Positions 3,755-30,164 of a stretch of DNA of 32,965 bases are shown piece after piece; position 1 is the first letter of the stretch; each line of letters begins with the position of its first letter. The position numbers and the translations under genes were made by a program. Origin of the DNA: a virus. The notes beneath the pieces were generated by a model. It did no database searches and was not told the DNA's origin. It worked only from the letters and a program-made list of their open reading frames with translations. The stretch covers positions 1 through 32,965 of IMG/VR virus record IMGVR_UViG_3300025083_000126; one strand, given 5' to 3'.

Positions 3755-4711
3755 TTAGTCGTTAGCAGAGTTAGTGATACCGTAAGTTACGATGTCATCA
3801 ACAATACCATACTGTACACCTGCTGTAAATCTCATTACAACTCTCACGTTTTGAGAGCCATCGATGTCAGCCATATCAATAACTTTAACTTCGTTATGGT
3901 CAGATAAAAGACCTGTACCGAAGAAAATGTTAGACTTCTCAGCAGCAATAGCAGTGTTAGCACTTAATCCGTTTGCAACAAAGATTTTAACTCCGTCAAA
4001 AGTTAAACTTCCGTTGTTCCACCATTGAGTACCCATAGCGTTTGTACCATTAGCACCTAATCCTGATGTTCCAAATCCACCTAAAGCTCTTACATAAGCT
4101 CTAGCAATGTTTTGAGATACATATAGGTTTAAGTCTTCGCTTCCGTAAAGAGTTGAAGGAATAGCATCTACGATAGAACCAAGCTGTGCAATTACATTGG
4201 CAGCATCTACAGTTGTACCTGCGATTTCATTTGCCTGTGGCAAAGCAGCATCAGCAGCTAATAAAGTAGATAGTCCATTGAATTGTCCAGATGTAGAAGT
4301 GTCCCCAGTCCAGATAGAAGTTTCTGTTCTTTGAGCAACTTTAGCTGCAACGTGTGCAAGTAAGAAGTCAGAGAATTTAGAGGGCATATCGCTGTGAGCT
4401 GAATACCCCATAGAAAGAGCTTCCCAATCAGAGATAAAGTCTTTCTTACATAATTGTAAGTTGACTTGTTGCTCTTCTGGCTGAAGGATTCTCTCTTCTA
4501 ATGTAATTGTAGAAGTAGGATCAAAATCACAAGATGCATCTTTTACGATATCATCTGTAGAAACTTTCTTGATCACCTCTTTTAATTTTACATTTGGCTT
4601 AACGGTAATACCACCATTCGAGATAGTAGAACCTTCAAGTAGAGCAGCAGCGATATATTCACCTGCAAACTCACCTGCATAAGTAGTAGAAATTGATGTA
4701 GTTGTTGGCAT
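3755..4711 (-). CDS. Major capsid protein
   Basis: This 318-residue protein would form the icosahedral shell. It starts MPTTTSISTTYAGEFAGEYI. It follows a protease and an acidic scaffold-like gene, as HK97-fold capsid genes usually do, and it has the central alanine-rich helix, the 'LAHVAAKVAQRTE' spine and the late 'DGVKIFVANGL' region typical of capsid proteins of this type. Terminator hairpins follow both this gene and the next. I see no cross-linking signature that can be assigned from sequence alone. Confidence 0.85.
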   Translation of the reverse strand: MPTTTSISTTYAGEFAGEYIAAALLEGSTISNGGITVKPNVKLKEVIKKVSTDDIVKDASCDFDPTSTITLEERILQPEEQQVNLQLCKKDFISDWEALSMGYSAHSDMPSKFSDFLLAHVAAKVAQRTETSIWTGDTSTSGQFNGLSTLLAADAALPQANEIAGTTVDAANVIAQLGSIVDAIPSTLYGSEDLNLYVSQNIARAYVRALGGFGTSGLGANGTNAMGTQWWNNGSLTFDGVKIFVANGLSANTAIAAEKSNIFFGTGLLSDHNEVKVIDMADIDGSQNVRVVMRFTAGVQYGIVDDIVTYGITNSAND

Positions 4712-7402: not shown

Positions 7403-8944
7403 TTAACCTAATGCACTCGTCTCTGTGATAGTTCTATCTAAGCTGTTTGCGTTTTTGATATCTTTATGAACCACAAATGCTCTTAATGGCTTTTCTTGCT
7501 GCTCAGAGACGGTTTGAGCTAACTGTGATTCAGGTGATGCACCCACTACATTAAATTCTGGGGCTGAAACATCTACAGAACCACCTGCACGACCTCCACC
7601 TTTTAATCTTCCTCCACCAGTTTCATCAACTTTTAATATTTCTCTTACATTACCTAATCCTGCTGCAATAACACCTGCCATTACAATTGGTTTTAAAGGA
7701 AAAGGAATATTTTCATCTTTCAAAACGTGTGAAGCTGCCAAAAATGTGTTTATGGTCGCATTTGCAACAGCGAAAGCCTTACCCATAGCGGACTGTTCTC
7801 CAAGCATATAAGCCATACCGTCAGTAAAAATAGCCAACGCTTCTAATTCAGTCATATAATTTTTTTGTCTAGCCATACTGTTAGACGTTAAAACCTCAGT
7901 AACTAAATCGTCAGTTTCCATCACTTGTAAACCAGAGGCTTCTATTTCACTAGCCACTTTAAATAACCCTTGCTTACCAGTTTGCTCATCTATAAGACCC
8001 TGATCTACTATATCTTGCTTTAAAGCATCCTTCCTTCTTTGTAATATTTCCCTTTCTTTCCTGTAATGCTCCCTTATATCTTCTAGTCTATTATCTCTAA
8101 CTTCCTTTTCATCTACAAAATTTTCTACAAGTGCAGTAAAACCTGCTGTAGCAAAATTACTCCTTAGAGCTGTTATTACAGCTAAATCCTGTCCTTCTCT
8201 TTTCCTTAAATCTTCTTGCTCATCAAGTTGTAACTGAAGCTCTTTAACATATATTTCCTCAAGCATAGACTGTTGGGCTGTTGCCTTAGCTAGTCTCTCT
8301 AAGGAAAGTATCTTTTTGTCAATCTGCTTTCTAGATTTTTCTGTTAGCTTACCATTTTCACCAACTTGTAAATTAAGGTCTTTATATTTTTTATTTAAAG
8401 CAATTACAGACCTATCTAATTCTATGGAGGAAACCCTATTTTCATCTAATAACTCCCTAAATATTTTCAAATCTGTTGCAGCAGCACCTATAGCTTTAGA
8501 CATTTCATTTACACCTCTAGCTGCCTTTCTAGAGTCCATATCAAATTTCTCTATTAAGGTTATAGCGATTTGAAAAAGAACAATTATTCCCAATGGACCC
8601 ATAAAAGCATTCTTCAATGCTGTTAACCCTTTCATAAATCCACCTGTTGTACTTATTAATGTTATAAATAAAGTAGATAATTGGGATAAGTTATTGGCAA
8701 TACCTCTAATTCCATAATTTGCATCAGATATAGTTCTACCAAGTTCAACAATTGTAGCACCTGCTAAACCAGTCTTATCAATCATTGGGTTGAGACCTTC
8801 CTTAGTTGTCTTTTTGACTTCAGTACCTAATTTTTTGAAAGCAGTTTCAGCCTTTACAAAACCTTTAGTTAATCCATCAATCTGTACCTTTCCTTTGTCA
8901 CTTATAACAATCTCATAGGTTAATGTTTTCCTAGTGTTAGCCAT
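7403..8944 (-). CDS. Tail tape measure protein (short)
   Basis: This 513-residue protein has long helical and coiled-coil stretches (EEIYVKELQLQLDEQEDLRKRE, YRKEREILQRRKDALKQDI), hydrophobic helices near residues 85-130 (STLFITLISTTGGFMKGL, GPLGIIVLFQIAITLIEKF) and an alanine/glycine-rich hydrophobic segment around 385-435. This is the usual make-up of a tape measure, which sets tail length and helps DNA enter the cell. At roughly 0.15 nm per residue the tail would be about 75 nm, which is short for a siphovirus. It is preceded by a 47-residue gene that overlaps it by 8 nt. Confidence 0.8.
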   Translation of the reverse strand: MANTRKTLTYEIVISDKGKVQIDGLTKGFVKAETAFKKLGTEVKKTTKEGLNPMIDKTGLAGATIVELGRTISDANYGIRGIANNLSQLSTLFITLISTTGGFMKGLTALKNAFMGPLGIIVLFQIAITLIEKFDMDSRKAARGVNEMSKAIGAAATDLKIFRELLDENRVSSIELDRSVIALNKKYKDLNLQVGENGKLTEKSRKQIDKKILSLERLAKATAQQSMLEEIYVKELQLQLDEQEDLRKREGQDLAVITALRSNFATAGFTALVENFVDEKEVRDNRLEDIREHYRKEREILQRRKDALKQDIVDQGLIDEQTGKQGLFKVASEIEASGLQVMETDDLVTEVLTSNSMARQKNYMTELEALAIFTDGMAYMLGEQSAMGKAFAVANATINTFLAASHVLKDENIPFPLKPIVMAGVIAAGLGNVREILKVDETGGGRLKGGGRAGGSVDVSAPEFNVVGASPESQLAQTVSEQQEKPLRAFVVHKDIKNANSLDRTITETSALG

Positions 8945-14132: not shown

Positions 14133-14593
14133 TAGCAAATGGTGTGTTCGTTATTAGGCATCTCTATATTAATGGTCGCTGCCCAACCTGCTAATTGATT
14201 TTCAAAGTTATCTATGAATGGTGAGGCTGTAATATCAGTTGTTATTTGCAAGTTATCCTCAAATAACCCACCCCTACGTAGCTCTTGTTGTATATCGTTT
14301 ATGACTTGCAGTTGAGTGTTTAGTATGTCCTGTAAGTTATCATTACCATAAACAAGGTCTTCATCGGTCAATTCCTTGTTTTTATCTACGACATCTAAGC
14401 AGAATAGCTGTACGGTTGCATTAATTATATGAGGTGAGAATGTAACTTCCCCCATTGATATATGGGATAGGGGATAGATTGTTGTTTTATCCAAATCAAC
14501 CTCTAATATATCACCAAAAGTTACAGTATTGGTAATCCCATTTTCCTTGAGCTTTGTTTTTAATTTGTCTATTACGGTATATACTTGCCTCAT
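14132..14593 (-). CDS. Probable tail terminator/completion protein
   Basis: This 153-residue protein starts MRQVYTVIDKLKTKLKENGI, continues into a beta-rich body and ends AGWAATINIEMPNNEHTIC. Size and position between the tail assembly chaperone and the gp10-like protein fit a tail terminator. The ATG overlaps (ATGA) the stop of the -1 frame that follows the chaperone, not the zero-frame stop at 14658. That is good evidence that the -1 frame is translated. Confidence 0.6.
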   Translation of the reverse strand: MRQVYTVIDKLKTKLKENGITNTVTFGDILEVDLDKTTIYPLSHISMGEVTFSPHIINATVQLFCLDVVDKNKELTDEDLVYGNDNLQDILNTQLQVINDIQQELRRGGLFEDNLQITTDITASPFIDNFENQLAGWAATINIEMPNNEHTIC

Positions 14594-14844
14594 TTCATTT
14601 TTTGTTTTATCATTTTAGCTTCTAGATCATTCTTTTCCTTCTCAAATTCTAACCAAGTCAAACATTCGGAAGCGGATAATTTCGCAATTTCTTTAAACTT
14701 TGTGATATCTCCTTTAGCGATTGCATATATTGATTGATACCAACCCCATTTTTTTCCAAAAGCTCCATTACTTCCTGATTCTTCATCGAATCCTCCTGCA
14801 AAGAGTTCAGTAAATAATCCGATAAAACGTTCCCTAAACGATAA
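14590..14844 (-). CDS. -1 frame extension of tail assembly chaperone (programmed frameshift)
   Basis: An open -1 frame runs through the chaperone's 3' third and ends at 14590. Its conserved part reads KKWGWYQSIYAIAKGD and continues ITKFKEIAKLSASECLTWLE, the type of sequence found in the second reading frame of tail chaperones in Bacteroidota phages. There is no good start codon, so it is most likely made as a fusion to the zero frame. Slippage at T9 (14851-14843) or at A AAA AAT (14754-14748) gives a 257-residue fusion in either case, counted from the ATG at 15362. The stop overlaps the next gene's ATG by 4 nt. The fusion is inferred; the frame, the slippery sites and the overlap are seen directly. 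Confidence 0.75.
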   Translation of the reverse strand, partial: LSFRERFIGLFTELFAGGFDEESGSNGAFGKKWGWYQSIYAIAKGDITKFKEIAKLSASECLTWLEFEKEKNDLEAKMIKQKMK

Positions 14845-15362
14845 AAAAAAACAACCGCACCTAGAGCTACGTTCACTGGGGCATCCTCCATAACCTCAGC
14901 ATACTTATCCGAACCTTCATAATCCTCTATCAAGTATAAATCCCCTTTCTGGAATGTTATTGGTCTATATAGAACAGCCATAGCTTTATGAATCTGTTGC
15001 CAATCACCTATGTAATTATCTAAATCTACAAACTCACCTAAAGTAATATCGTCTAACTTAGGTATGAATCCAAACTTAACAGAGTTGCCTTGAGGGTCTG
15101 TCATTGTAAAGTCTCTCTGTAGAGGTGTGTCCTCCTTAAATATACTTATAATGTGGCTTATGATGAATGAAAATTCTGCTAGAGGTAACTTATATGCCTC
15201 CTTCATTGTAACTCCACAAAATATCTCTAATACTTTTAAGTTCATAAACTCCTTATCTTCAGCATCTTCATTCCCCTCCATAACTTTCAGGTACTTCTGA
15301 TATTGTTTTAGTGGTATAGCGGACAGTTCTTGCGGTACTTCTAAAGTAAACTTTTGACTCAT
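14658..15362 (-). CDS. Tail assembly chaperone, zero-frame product
   Basis: This 234-residue protein starts MSQKFTLEVPQELSAIPLKQ (start at 15362; a longer in-frame start at 15404 has no support). It continues with LKVLEIFCGVTMKEAYKLPL and 'FGFIPKLDDITLGEFVDLDN', a pattern seen in tail assembly chaperones of flavobacterial phages. Such proteins bind the tape measure while the tail tube forms. The last part (codons after AAAAAAT) overlaps the -1 frame entirely. The first gene of the structural operon, it is preceded by a 700-nt non-coding region. Confidence 0.75.
   Translation of the reverse strand: MSQKFTLEVPQELSAIPLKQYQKYLKVMEGNEDAEDKEFMNLKVLEIFCGVTMKEAYKLPLAEFSFIISHIISIFKEDTPLQRDFTMTDPQGNSVKFGFIPKLDDITLGEFVDLDNYIGDWQQIHKAMAVLYRPITFQKGDLYLIEDYEGSDKYAEVMEDAPVNVALGAVVFFYRLGNVLSDYLLNSLQEDSMKNQEVMELLEKNGVGINQYMQSLKEISQSLKKLRNYPLPNV
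14748..14755 (-). promoter_or_regulatory. Slippery heptamer A AAA AAT
   Basis: On the minus strand GGAAAAAAATGGGG is read GAA AAA AAT GGG in the zero frame, so the heptamer A AAA AAT has the right phase for a -1 slip. After the slip the ribosome reads TGG GGT TGG, giving the conserved KKWGW. Confidence 0.7.
14843..14851 (-). promoter_or_regulatory. Second candidate slippery site, T9
   Basis: Nine consecutive T on the minus strand, read GTT TTT TTT TAT in the zero frame, contain T TTT TTT in the correct phase for a -1 slip. The -1 frame is open from here to 14590. It could be an alternative or additional frameshift site, or a source of polymerase slippage. Confidence 0.5.
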
Positions 15363-18400: not shown

Positions 18401-18898
18401 CTACAAAATTTTATTTCCCTTCGATAAATTTTCTTCTTTCCAAAGTGGTTGAAGATTTGTGTAGTGACAAAGTTTTTCCATCTCTTCCTTTGTCTTGGCT
18501 GAAGATAGAGGTATTATATGATCTATATGCCATTCACCGTGATTCTCCCAAGTCATACCTTCAGTGAATTGAGACTCAATATGTTTAAATGCTGTTTCAT
18601 AATCAGTGCCAAGCATATCTATATTACCAGAGCTTTTAGTCCAATAGTTAACAGTAAAAGCTATAGAAGTTCTTGTTCTTAAATTCTTTTTGAATTTGTA
18701 TAGGGGATCATTTTTCCTCCTATTCTTACTATAGACTCTACGATATGCATTAGTTTTGTCTTTATTCTTTTTTCTGTATTCAGAAACATATTTATTTTTA
18801 CAAATCTTGCACTGATTACTAAACCCACATTTTCTTCTTCTGTTTTTATGGAAATCTTCCAGAGGCTTAGTTTCGTTACAATCCCAACATTTTTGCAT
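18401..18898 (-). CDS. HNH endonuclease with zinc finger
   Basis: This 165-residue protein carries an N-terminal zinc finger (C4, C7, C30, C33) and a C-terminal HNH domain with WHIDHIIPLSSAKT (H124, D126, H127) and TNLQPLWKEENLSKGNK (N148, N157). This is the usual build of free-standing phage HNH or homing-type endonucleases. I chose the ATG at 18898, 4 nt after the terminase stop, over a longer start inside the terminase. Next to a large terminase, HNH enzymes often take part in packaging (cos cutting) in some phages; here a selfish homing element is an equal possibility. Confidence 0.85.
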   Translation of the reverse strand: MQKCWDCNETKPLEDFHKNRRRKCGFSNQCKICKNKYVSEYRKKNKDKTNAYRRVYSKNRRKNDPLYKFKKNLRTRTSIAFTVNYWTKSSGNIDMLGTDYETAFKHIESQFTEGMTWENHGEWHIDHIIPLSSAKTKEEMEKLCHYTNLQPLWKEENLSKGNKIL

Positions 18899-18902
18899 AA
18901 TA

Positions 18903-20108
18903 CTATCGAATAACATAACTCCCTTTGTTTGCATTAGCAAGGAAGTATTGAGCTGCATAACGTAAGCTATCCATATGGTGATTCCATTTATCTATTGGCC
19001 TTTCATTTCTACTATGCCATACATAGTTATTGAGTTCCTTAATAAGTTCTAAGGAATCAGGGTCAATAATCAAGTCGTAGTCTTGTATCAATGCAATACC
19101 ACTCAAGATACTACCCTGCCTCTTTATTGCAGGTTTTACGTTGCAATATACTTTGAGTTCCTGTAACAATCTAGGTTCAGCACTATCACAGATAACAAGT
19201 TCATCTTGGGCATATCTTCTGTTCATCTCCCCAATCTCTTTTGTAGAAAGTCCAACCTTACAGTACATTGTCTTTAACCACATCTTCTTCCTATCCTTGT
19301 CAATAGCTACCTTCAGTAGAACGGTAGGATCGACTGAAAACCCAAAGTCTTGCCCATACACATAAGGAGCATATTCGTTGAATGATCCAATAGTCCAACG
19401 AGTGAATACAACACCATCAGCTTTATCTAACCAACCACCGAGTATCTGGTGATTATATTTATCTGGCCTACGTCTACGAATCTCCTCTGTCTGGTTGATA
19501 AAAGAATCAGACAGATTCTTCTTATTGTCTTTGAATGTAGTGTGAATGTAAGTTACATTGTCTTTAGCACCATTCCATCCACCGTTAACAGCCTTAGCTG
19601 CAAAGAACCTTTGGTATATCCAATGCTCCTTAGTTGTAGGGTTTAATATAAGTATAACTCTGTTGGGCTTATTCTTAACCCTTACAGACTGATCTATCTT
19701 GTCAAAAGTATCTTCATCAATAAGTTCCTCAGCTTCATCCAATACAAATGTTGTAATACCTTGTAAGGACTTCAAGGCAGCAGTTTGATTACCTGCTGAA
19801 GTCTTGATACCTTTGAAGATAATAGAACTACCTGTGGATATATTTAGTATCTCATCTTTAGTTATCCTAAAGTGTTCAGAGATACCATACAATTCTATCT
19901 TCTCTATAAACTCTGGAATAATAGATGTAGAAGCCGAACTCATAGTGTACCTAGTGAAGAGTATCTTATGACCCTGTTCCATCGTTAGCAGGGCTAAGAA
20001 TGCCCCTACAGCAAATGACTTACCACTACCTCTACCACCAGTTACAACAAAGTAACGAGTATCATTCCCTAAACGTCTATATTTAGAGTTTAGTTTTGGT
20101 GCTGACAT
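18903..20108 (-). CDS. terL: Terminase large subunit
   Basis: This 401-residue packaging motor has an ATPase domain with Walker A GGRGSGKS (residues 24-31) and Walker B FVLDEAEE (121-128; D124, E125), the coupling stretch LILNPTTKEHW, and a C-terminal RNase H-like nuclease with likely catalytic acids at D254 (GQDFGFSVDPT), D308 (CDSAEP) and D380 (HHMDSLRYA). It matches the PBSX/Terminase_3 type. The start overlaps the methyltransferase gene by 19 nt. It is shorter than many terminases of this type (about 420-450), mainly at the N-terminus. Confidence 0.95.
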   Translation of the reverse strand: MSAPKLNSKYRRLGNDTRYFVVTGGRGSGKSFAVGAFLALLTMEQGHKILFTRYTMSSASTSIIPEFIEKIELYGISEHFRITKDEILNISTGSSIIFKGIKTSAGNQTAALKSLQGITTFVLDEAEELIDEDTFDKIDQSVRVKNKPNRVILILNPTTKEHWIYQRFFAAKAVNGGWNGAKDNVTYIHTTFKDNKKNLSDSFINQTEEIRRRRPDKYNHQILGGWLDKADGVVFTRWTIGSFNEYAPYVYGQDFGFSVDPTVLLKVAIDKDRKKMWLKTMYCKVGLSTKEIGEMNRRYAQDELVICDSAEPRLLQELKVYCNVKPAIKRQGSILSGIALIQDYDLIIDPDSLELIKELNNYVWHSRNERPIDKWNHHMDSLRYAAQYFLANANKGSYVIR

Positions 20109-28775: not shown

Positions 28776-28807
28776 CAAATTTAATACAAGTTACGATATA
28801 AACCAAA
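28776..28807 (-). promoter_or_regulatory. Flavobacterial-type promoter, leftward, directly upstream of a terminator
   Basis: On the minus strand TTTG (28807-28804), a 20-nt spacer and TAAATTTG (28783-28776) form a close match to the flavobacterial consensus. A transcript would begin near 28769 and meet the terminator hairpin only about 30 nt later. Confidence 0.55.
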
Positions 28808-29156
28808 TCATTGGTGGCTTTAAATCATCGTTATCTACGTGAATGTATTTAGAGTGTAAACCAAACCTCCTAAACCCAACCATAGATAGTGCCTCGATTA
28901 TTCTAAGACGTTTCTTTGCATTAACACATTCAATGTGAGCTGCCCTACCTATCAAGTGACTAGAGGTGGTAGTAGCCATAAAATGATTAGTGTTATAAGC
29001 AGGTGTCCTATACCCACTAAGTATCTTAAACCTAATTCCTGCAATATCCCTAGCTTCATCTAGCATTCCGATAAATTCCCTATCCATATATTTATAGCCA
29101 CTACCTATCAATGTAGGGCAATCAAACTCATCAAATGAAAAATATTTGTATTCCAT
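28791..29156 (-). CDS. M15A peptidase-like protein, altered zinc ligand
   Basis: This 121-residue protein is a paralogue of the gene at 29808-30164. It keeps KILSGYRTPAYNTNHF, SSHLIGRAAHIEC (H67) and KYIHVDND (H106) of M15A peptidases (D-Ala-D-Ala carboxypeptidase or endolysin type), which cleave cell-wall peptides. The Asp of the HxxGxAxD ligand motif is His here (H74). His can bind zinc, so activity may be changed rather than lost. It lies at the end of the lysis module, downstream of the holin and separated from it by a 213-nt non-coding gap. Confidence 0.75.
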   Translation of the reverse strand: MEYKYFSFDEFDCPTLIGSGYKYMDREFIGMLDEARDIAGIRFKILSGYRTPAYNTNHFMATTTSSHLIGRAAHIECVNAKKRLRIIEALSMVGFRRFGLHSKYIHVDNDDLKPPMIWFIS

Positions 29157-29807: not shown

Positions 29808-30164
29808 TTAGTATGTCCAAACAGAGTTTGGCTTGGAGTCATCGGTATCACAATGGATAAAGGTTTTTGCAACTCCAATACGAGTGAATCCTGCTCTGAT
29901 AAGGGCATTAAGTATAATGTATCTTTCACTTCCAGTTGTGACTGAGATATCTGCTGCTTTACCAATGAGGTGGGAGCTGTTTTCAACTCCTCCAACAAAA
30001 TTATTCCTTGACTTGGTTCTATACCCTGAACTGATTCTAAATGAGATTCCTGCAAGGTCTCTAGCGTGGTCAAGTTTATAAAGAAAGTTACTATCCATAT
30101 TCTTACCTGAATTAGGTAAATCAGGACTGTCAAATTCCGATAAAGAAAAATAATTAAGGTTCAT
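29808..30164 (-). CDS. M15A peptidase, canonical endolysin-like enzyme
   Basis: This 118-residue enzyme carries RISSGYRTKSRNNF, SSHLIGKAADISV (H65, D72) and TFIHCDTDDSKP (H104), the full zinc-binding set of the peptidase M15A family. It probably cuts peptidoglycan stem peptides at lysis. It is the more canonical of two paralogues in this module, and it lies two genes from the EF-hand-like membrane protein. Confidence 0.85.
   Translation of the reverse strand: MNLNYFSLSEFDSPDLPNSGKNMDSNFLYKLDHARDLAGISFRISSGYRTKSRNNFVGGVENSSHLIGKAADISVTTGSERYIILNALIRAGFTRIGVAKTFIHCDTDDSKPNSVWTY

Follow-up and report, generated by a model that had tools for sequence, protein, structure and literature searches.

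A run of nine or more T's and a probable slippage-made second product of a tail-type gene in aquatic Bacteroidota phages

The window, meaning the whole 32,965-nt stretch of phage DNA analysed here, carries on its minus strand a tail-cluster gene overlapped by a conserved -1 frame, raising the questions of whether one gene yields two proteins, where the frame changes and whether the ribosome or the RNA polymerase changes it. The first-pass annotation had proposed a lambda gpG/gpGT-type tail assembly chaperone, extended by programmed -1 ribosomal frameshifting at a slippery heptamer. The features concerned, all on the minus strand, are:

15362 (ATG) to 14658, minus strand: 0-frame open reading frame, gpG-like short product of 234 aa (phrog_32199)
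14841 to 15362, minus strand: conserved N-terminal domain, 174 aa, 173 of them common to both products
14851 to 14843, minus strand: run of nine T's (T9), the putative slip site, read in the 0 frame as GTT TTT TTT TAT (A9 on the plus strand)
14590 to 14844, minus strand: -1-frame extension, gpT-like domain of 84 aa plus stop, LSFRERF...FGKKWGWYQSIYAIAKGD...
14754 to 14748, minus strand: A AAA AAT heptamer, in phase and not conserved
14590 to 14593, minus strand: 4-nt ATGA overlap of the -1-frame stop with the start of the next gene
14593 to 14132, minus strand: next gene, phrog_30964, syntenic and of unknown function
18903 to 20108, minus strand: terminase large subunit, upstream in the same cluster
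7403 to 8944, minus strand: tape measure protein (phrog_1506), downstream in the same cluster

The open -1 frame described in the first-pass annotation was borne out, as it runs uninterrupted from 5' of the T run down to a stop at 14592-14590, and its claimed conservation was confirmed by more than 560 -1-frame relatives in one viral collection (of which the best 80 were retrieved), far above chance. The relatives compared below comprise 293 unique loci with a readable site, gathered by searches with the 0-frame domain, with the -1 domain and with whole genomes; the remaining loci were cut by a contig end. The -1 stop and the start codon of the following gene were also found to overlap, as exact ATGA in 192 of the 293 loci, and the 0-frame stop was placed 65-68 nt upstream, a distance near the 64 nt claimed. 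The fusion of about 257 residues comes to 257 aa whether the slip occurs at the heptamer or at the T9 run, the two versions being unlike at residues 174 to ~204.

The position of the frame change, by contrast, differs from the one proposed. A ribosomal -1 frameshift at 14754-14748 is favoured by the A AAA AAT found there in the correct phase, but this heptamer is not a conserved slip site: in-phase A AAA AAN occurs near that position in only 25 of 142 unique relatives, and locus L043, whose -1 domain is 93% identical across the part covered, reads GCAAAATGGGG in its place. In the -1-frame relatives, alignment begins at residue 1 or 2 of the translation that opens at the T run, so that -1 conservation starts at ~14850 and the proposed slip position lies ~95 nt too far downstream. 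In a substitution-phase control with 319 pairs of related loci, 74% of substitutions upstream of T9 fell on position 3 of the 0 frame, those from T9 to +60 were spread near evenly over the codon positions (34/29/37%) and, beyond +96, position 3 of the -1 frame led with 52-70%, the 0-frame bias having gone directly after T9 and ahead of the heptamer. Together, the alignments and the shift of substitution phase at T9 indicate that the -1 frame is read from the T run onward, leaving slippage at A AAA AAT with next to no credence. As judged from the aligned sequences, both frames are under purifying selection, and the first 20-30 codons of the 0-frame continuation past T9 appear somewhat constrained or carried along.

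The T9 run at 14843-14851 is the sole A/T run of nine or more within the window, and a run of 9 (254 loci), 10 (38 loci) or 12 T's (one locus) is present at all 293 unique loci, with none shorter than 9. It includes an invariant TTT TTT, preceded by GTT, CTT, ATT, TTT or GGT and followed by TAT, TAC, TGG, TTG, TTA, TTC, TTT, TCG or CTG, giving three codon registers and 20 codon combinations such as GTT TTT TTT TAT, TTT TTT TTT CTG, ATT TTT TTT TTG and GGT TTT TTT TTG. On a scale of codon positions from 0 to 2, the first T stands at position 1 in runs of length 9 (n=245), 10 (n=25) and 12 (n=1), at position 0 in runs of length 10 (n=13) and 9 (n=7), and at position 2 in runs of length 9 (n=2). 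The frame relation is -1 throughout, the other direction of shift not being seen, and none of the 293 loci has the two domains fused in frame. In-frame fused relatives were also sought in 397 family-level and 395 phylum-level genomes, and none was found; the same search added two loci, each of which has T9 followed by a -1 extension.

Two loci stand apart by where they were found. L108 (JAHZJZ010000222.1), filed under an Epsilonproteobacteria metagenome-assembled genome, has the gene in the register TTT TTT TTT CTG, and its taxonomic placement is probably a binning error. L404 (9180-9934; G218 contig 1, near 2,638,179) is a prophage that sits 2.64 Mb into a bacterial contig of 3.9 Mb and has the same T9 gene and the same gene order, so members of the family occur beyond free phage contigs. 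The +1 frame stops 0-7 codons past the run (273 loci); this was considered as a guard against slippage in the wrong direction and was not used, the stop being largely forced by the TTTAG common to the other two frames.

The evolution of this site involved repeated changes of codon register while run length was retained. On a tree of 264 rows, changes numbered at least 13 for the register class, at least 52 for the fourth codon and at least 39 for the opening base of the first codon, with the run never falling below 9. Where CTG follows the run the first codon is always TTT, and GGT as the first codon invariably goes with TTG as the fourth; the sliding can be seen directly in L357 and L359, which read GGT TTT TTT TTG (1+3+3+2 T's), set against their relative L360, which reads GTT TTT TTT TGG (2+3+3+1). 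If the flanking codons were independent, runs shorter than 9 would be expected at 8.3 of the 293 loci, none is observed and 0 of 20,000 shuffles reached zero, in a test whose loci share ancestry and are not independent. Independent sliding events are few, since the CTG register has only two origins on the tree and the GGT register belongs to a single small clade, and a tree-based sign test for the CTG register, with 2 independent pairs, was not significant. On the same tree, neither of the two slip Phe codons had any synonymous T/C change, against 17-60 such changes at the remaining conserved two-fold codons in the 0-frame domain and 8-36 in the -1 domain, with the exception of one column, the dual-coded Phe just past the run (TTT before AGG), which had 0 changes. 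Away from this site, the coding sequence of these loci (432 kb) contains two A runs of nine or more, where synonymous-codon shuffles lead one to expect ~27. By these comparative measures, run length, and not a codon-phased 7-nt heptamer, is what selection keeps.

Sequencing errors and replication slippage come easily at long T runs, and this counts in favour of reading the locus as a homopolymer error, a decayed gene or a case of phase variation in the DNA itself, with T's gained and lost. This reading is nevertheless very improbable, as all 293 unique loci, including those of the isolates P12024S and P12024L and of the chromosomal prophage, stand in the same -1 relation with no in-frame fusion, both frames are under purifying selection, and longer runs are offset by codon register. 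Very little weight likewise falls on the -1 frame as a gene in its own right with a separate start codon, which is how gene callers treat it when they split the gene into P12024S_38 and P12024S_39. The first-pass annotation had described this frame as having no start of its own, and in 272 of the 293 loci the first in-frame ATG comes at codon 50 or later or is absent, though homology begins at the run; moreover, in some distant viral proteins a single chain contains both domains.

A -1 ribosomal frameshift at T TTT TTT within the T9 run, giving the same fusion protein, is the alternative of most substance. This heptamer lies in phase inside the run at all 293 loci, and ribosomal slippage may add to polymerase slippage; U_UU.U_UU.U and U_UU.U_UU.C are among the efficient heptamers in E. 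coli (PMC4066793), and in other phages the tail chaperone genes rely on -1 shifts by the ribosome (PMC5009743). All orthologues shift to -1 only, and a single direction of shift among orthologues is given by the authors of GeneTack, as a heuristic and not a definition, as a sign of ribosomal frameshifting (PMC3711429). Against this, seven T's suffice for the ribosome, yet nine or more are always kept, even through register changes. A change to C at T8, the third base of the second slip Phe codon, alters no residue in the 0 frame (TTT to TTC) nor, in the usual register, in the -1 frame (TTA to CTA, TTG to CTG), and leaves the good heptamer U UUU UUC, but it is never seen. The stimulatory elements that commonly, though not universally, accompany ribosomal frameshifting are also missing: among 60 diverse loci folded, there was no downstream RNA structure at the run (mean z -0.03 for +4 to +64) and no excess structure upstream of it, and Shine-Dalgarno (SD)-like 5-mers lie by the run in only 9 of 293 loci, so that no such element accompanies the site. 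SD sequences are in general lacking from the mRNAs of Bacteroidota (PMC6847099). The ribosome as the main agent is therefore possible but rather unlikely, and the ribosomal mechanism of the first-pass annotation is less probable than RNA polymerase slippage at the T9 run.

Polymerase slippage is favoured because a ribosomal -1 shift needs only seven T's while at least nine are kept, and because the kept length matches the published threshold of more than eight. Nine A or T are enough for efficient transcriptional slippage in vivo (PMC5009743), and 'Tn, n > 8' is given for transcriptional realignment or slippage (PMC3711429), a threshold measured mainly in E. coli and not in Bacteroidota. A homopolymer of this kind, 9-12 T's, lies at the frame switch in 293 of 293 loci, and its length is conserved independently of codon phase. 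Tail chaperone frameshifting serves as a textbook example of recoding by the ribosome; here the homopolymer keeps its length and the codon phase slides, which is the signature expected of polymerase slippage. Of RNA polymerase insertions, 80% are of one nucleotide, mostly in A/T runs and with a steep rise with run length (PMC5574713), and a single-base insertion supplies the direction needed, one extra U leading into the -1 frame. We infer that the polymerase is favoured over the ribosome at the T run by about two to one, and both may act.

The locus would accordingly be a lambda G/GT-like two-product tail assembly chaperone gene whose 257-aa fusion is made mainly by transcriptional slippage, a reading with a probability of roughly 0.6. 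RNA polymerase would stutter at T9 and add one U to part of the transcripts (U10), on which ordinary ribosomes would enter the -1 frame, reading V-F-F-L-S-F-R; the fusion would consist of the first 173 residues and the 84-aa -1-frame domain, with the 234-aa protein as the 0-frame product. The 0-frame protein would then bind the tape measure, and the minority fusion would recruit tail tube subunits. That the whole Bacteroidota phage lineage sets its tail-chaperone product ratio by RNA polymerase slippage at T9-12 has odds only a little better than even. No report of slippage in a tail chaperone gene was found among the open-access papers searched.

The neighbourhood places the gene within a tail cluster in the order terminase, two-product gene, phrog_30964, phrog_29822, phrog_35281, phrog_38559, tape measure, protease and capsid, in which the window has one extra gene (13609-12539). 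Four or five genes thus separate the two-product gene from the tape measure, and it stands outside the usual, though not definitional, place of a tail chaperone between tail tube and tape measure while still lying inside the tail cluster. Elsewhere on the minus strand, an HNH-type open reading frame (by eye) at 18401-18958 begins within the end of the terminase gene, and those at 28791-29156 and 29808-30164 look like neighbouring paralogous M15-type peptidases (SGYRT...H.IG.AA), the first with AAHIE and the second with AADIS at the usual position of the catalytic Asp (by eye).

Of the proposed likeness to lambda G/GT, the architecture stands, with one tail-cluster gene apparently encoding two products at 293 loci, with a common N-terminal domain and a -1 extension under strong selection, and the identity as a chaperone is plausible and unproven. 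AlphaFold models had a mean pLDDT of 92 for the 0-frame domain (174 aa) and 78 for the -1 domain (84 aa). Foldseek matched the 0-frame domain to many uncharacterised phage proteins, that of P12024S among them; against the PDB, the only relevant name was the HK97 tail assembly chaperone gp13, a weak match at rank 4 with E 1.1. VIA comparison of this domain with HK97 gp13 gave Z 3.5 over 67 residues, where an unrelated chain ranked first with 4.1, and VIA-align of the -1 domain gave no match at Z of 2 or more (one chain compared). Pfam held nothing credible for either domain and PDB profile searches found nothing, while PHROGs returned only the unknown families 32199 and 38404, together with a weak match to a tail protein family by 3 of 35 members. 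Architecture, synteny and the weak similarity to HK97 gp13 together make a lambda G/GT-type tail assembly chaperone the most likely role of the pair. Both AlphaFold models are matched by several viral proteins 226-267 aa long; such single chains in BFVD include A0A516L611, A0A516L5A8, A0A6J5N0W0 and A0A6J7WJY4, among others, which suggests in-frame fusions in distant relatives that would make the long form only, known here as proteins.

On present evidence, a large group of aquatic Bacteroidota phages appears to make two versions of one tail-type product through a frame change at a T run. With more than 560 loci in one collection, the mechanism is testable by RNA sequencing alone. Cultured relatives are at hand in the Nonlabens phages P12024S and P12024L, which have the same T9 run and both domains, with a 0-frame tail past the run of only 25 residues. 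Their genes P12024S_38/39 and P12024L_40/41 (L103/L104, locus 3995-4689) are annotated as two hypothetical proteins each, and each pair should be one recoded gene. A T run of nine or more at the end of a phrog_32199 domain can serve as an annotation rule for such genes, now split into two hypothetical proteins.

Lambda gpG/gpGT and HK97 gp13/gp14 likewise have a short product and a -1 C-terminal extension within a tail gene cluster, and there too the extension reaches the next gene. They differ in using a 7-nt heptamer where the present family has T9 or longer, and ribosomal slippage where RNA polymerase slippage is likely here; unlike in lambda and HK97, the tape measure lies several genes downstream and the terminase upstream. 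A check of homology with lambda gpG/gpT by hhalign found no sequence similarity to the two-product gene. A close parallel in mechanism may be dnaX of Thermus thermophilus, in which nine A/T also lead to two products from one gene via mRNAs with extra bases, nine T's in the template giving extra A's in the mRNA (PMC5009743). There, a cellular replication gene has a run of A's in its mRNA; here, a phage tail-type gene has U's and gives access to the -1 frame. If polymerase slippage is confirmed, the choice of product would be settled in the transcript rather than at the ribosome, and these phages would reach the same output as other tail chaperone genes, two products at a set ratio, by a different machine, as is known for dnaX.
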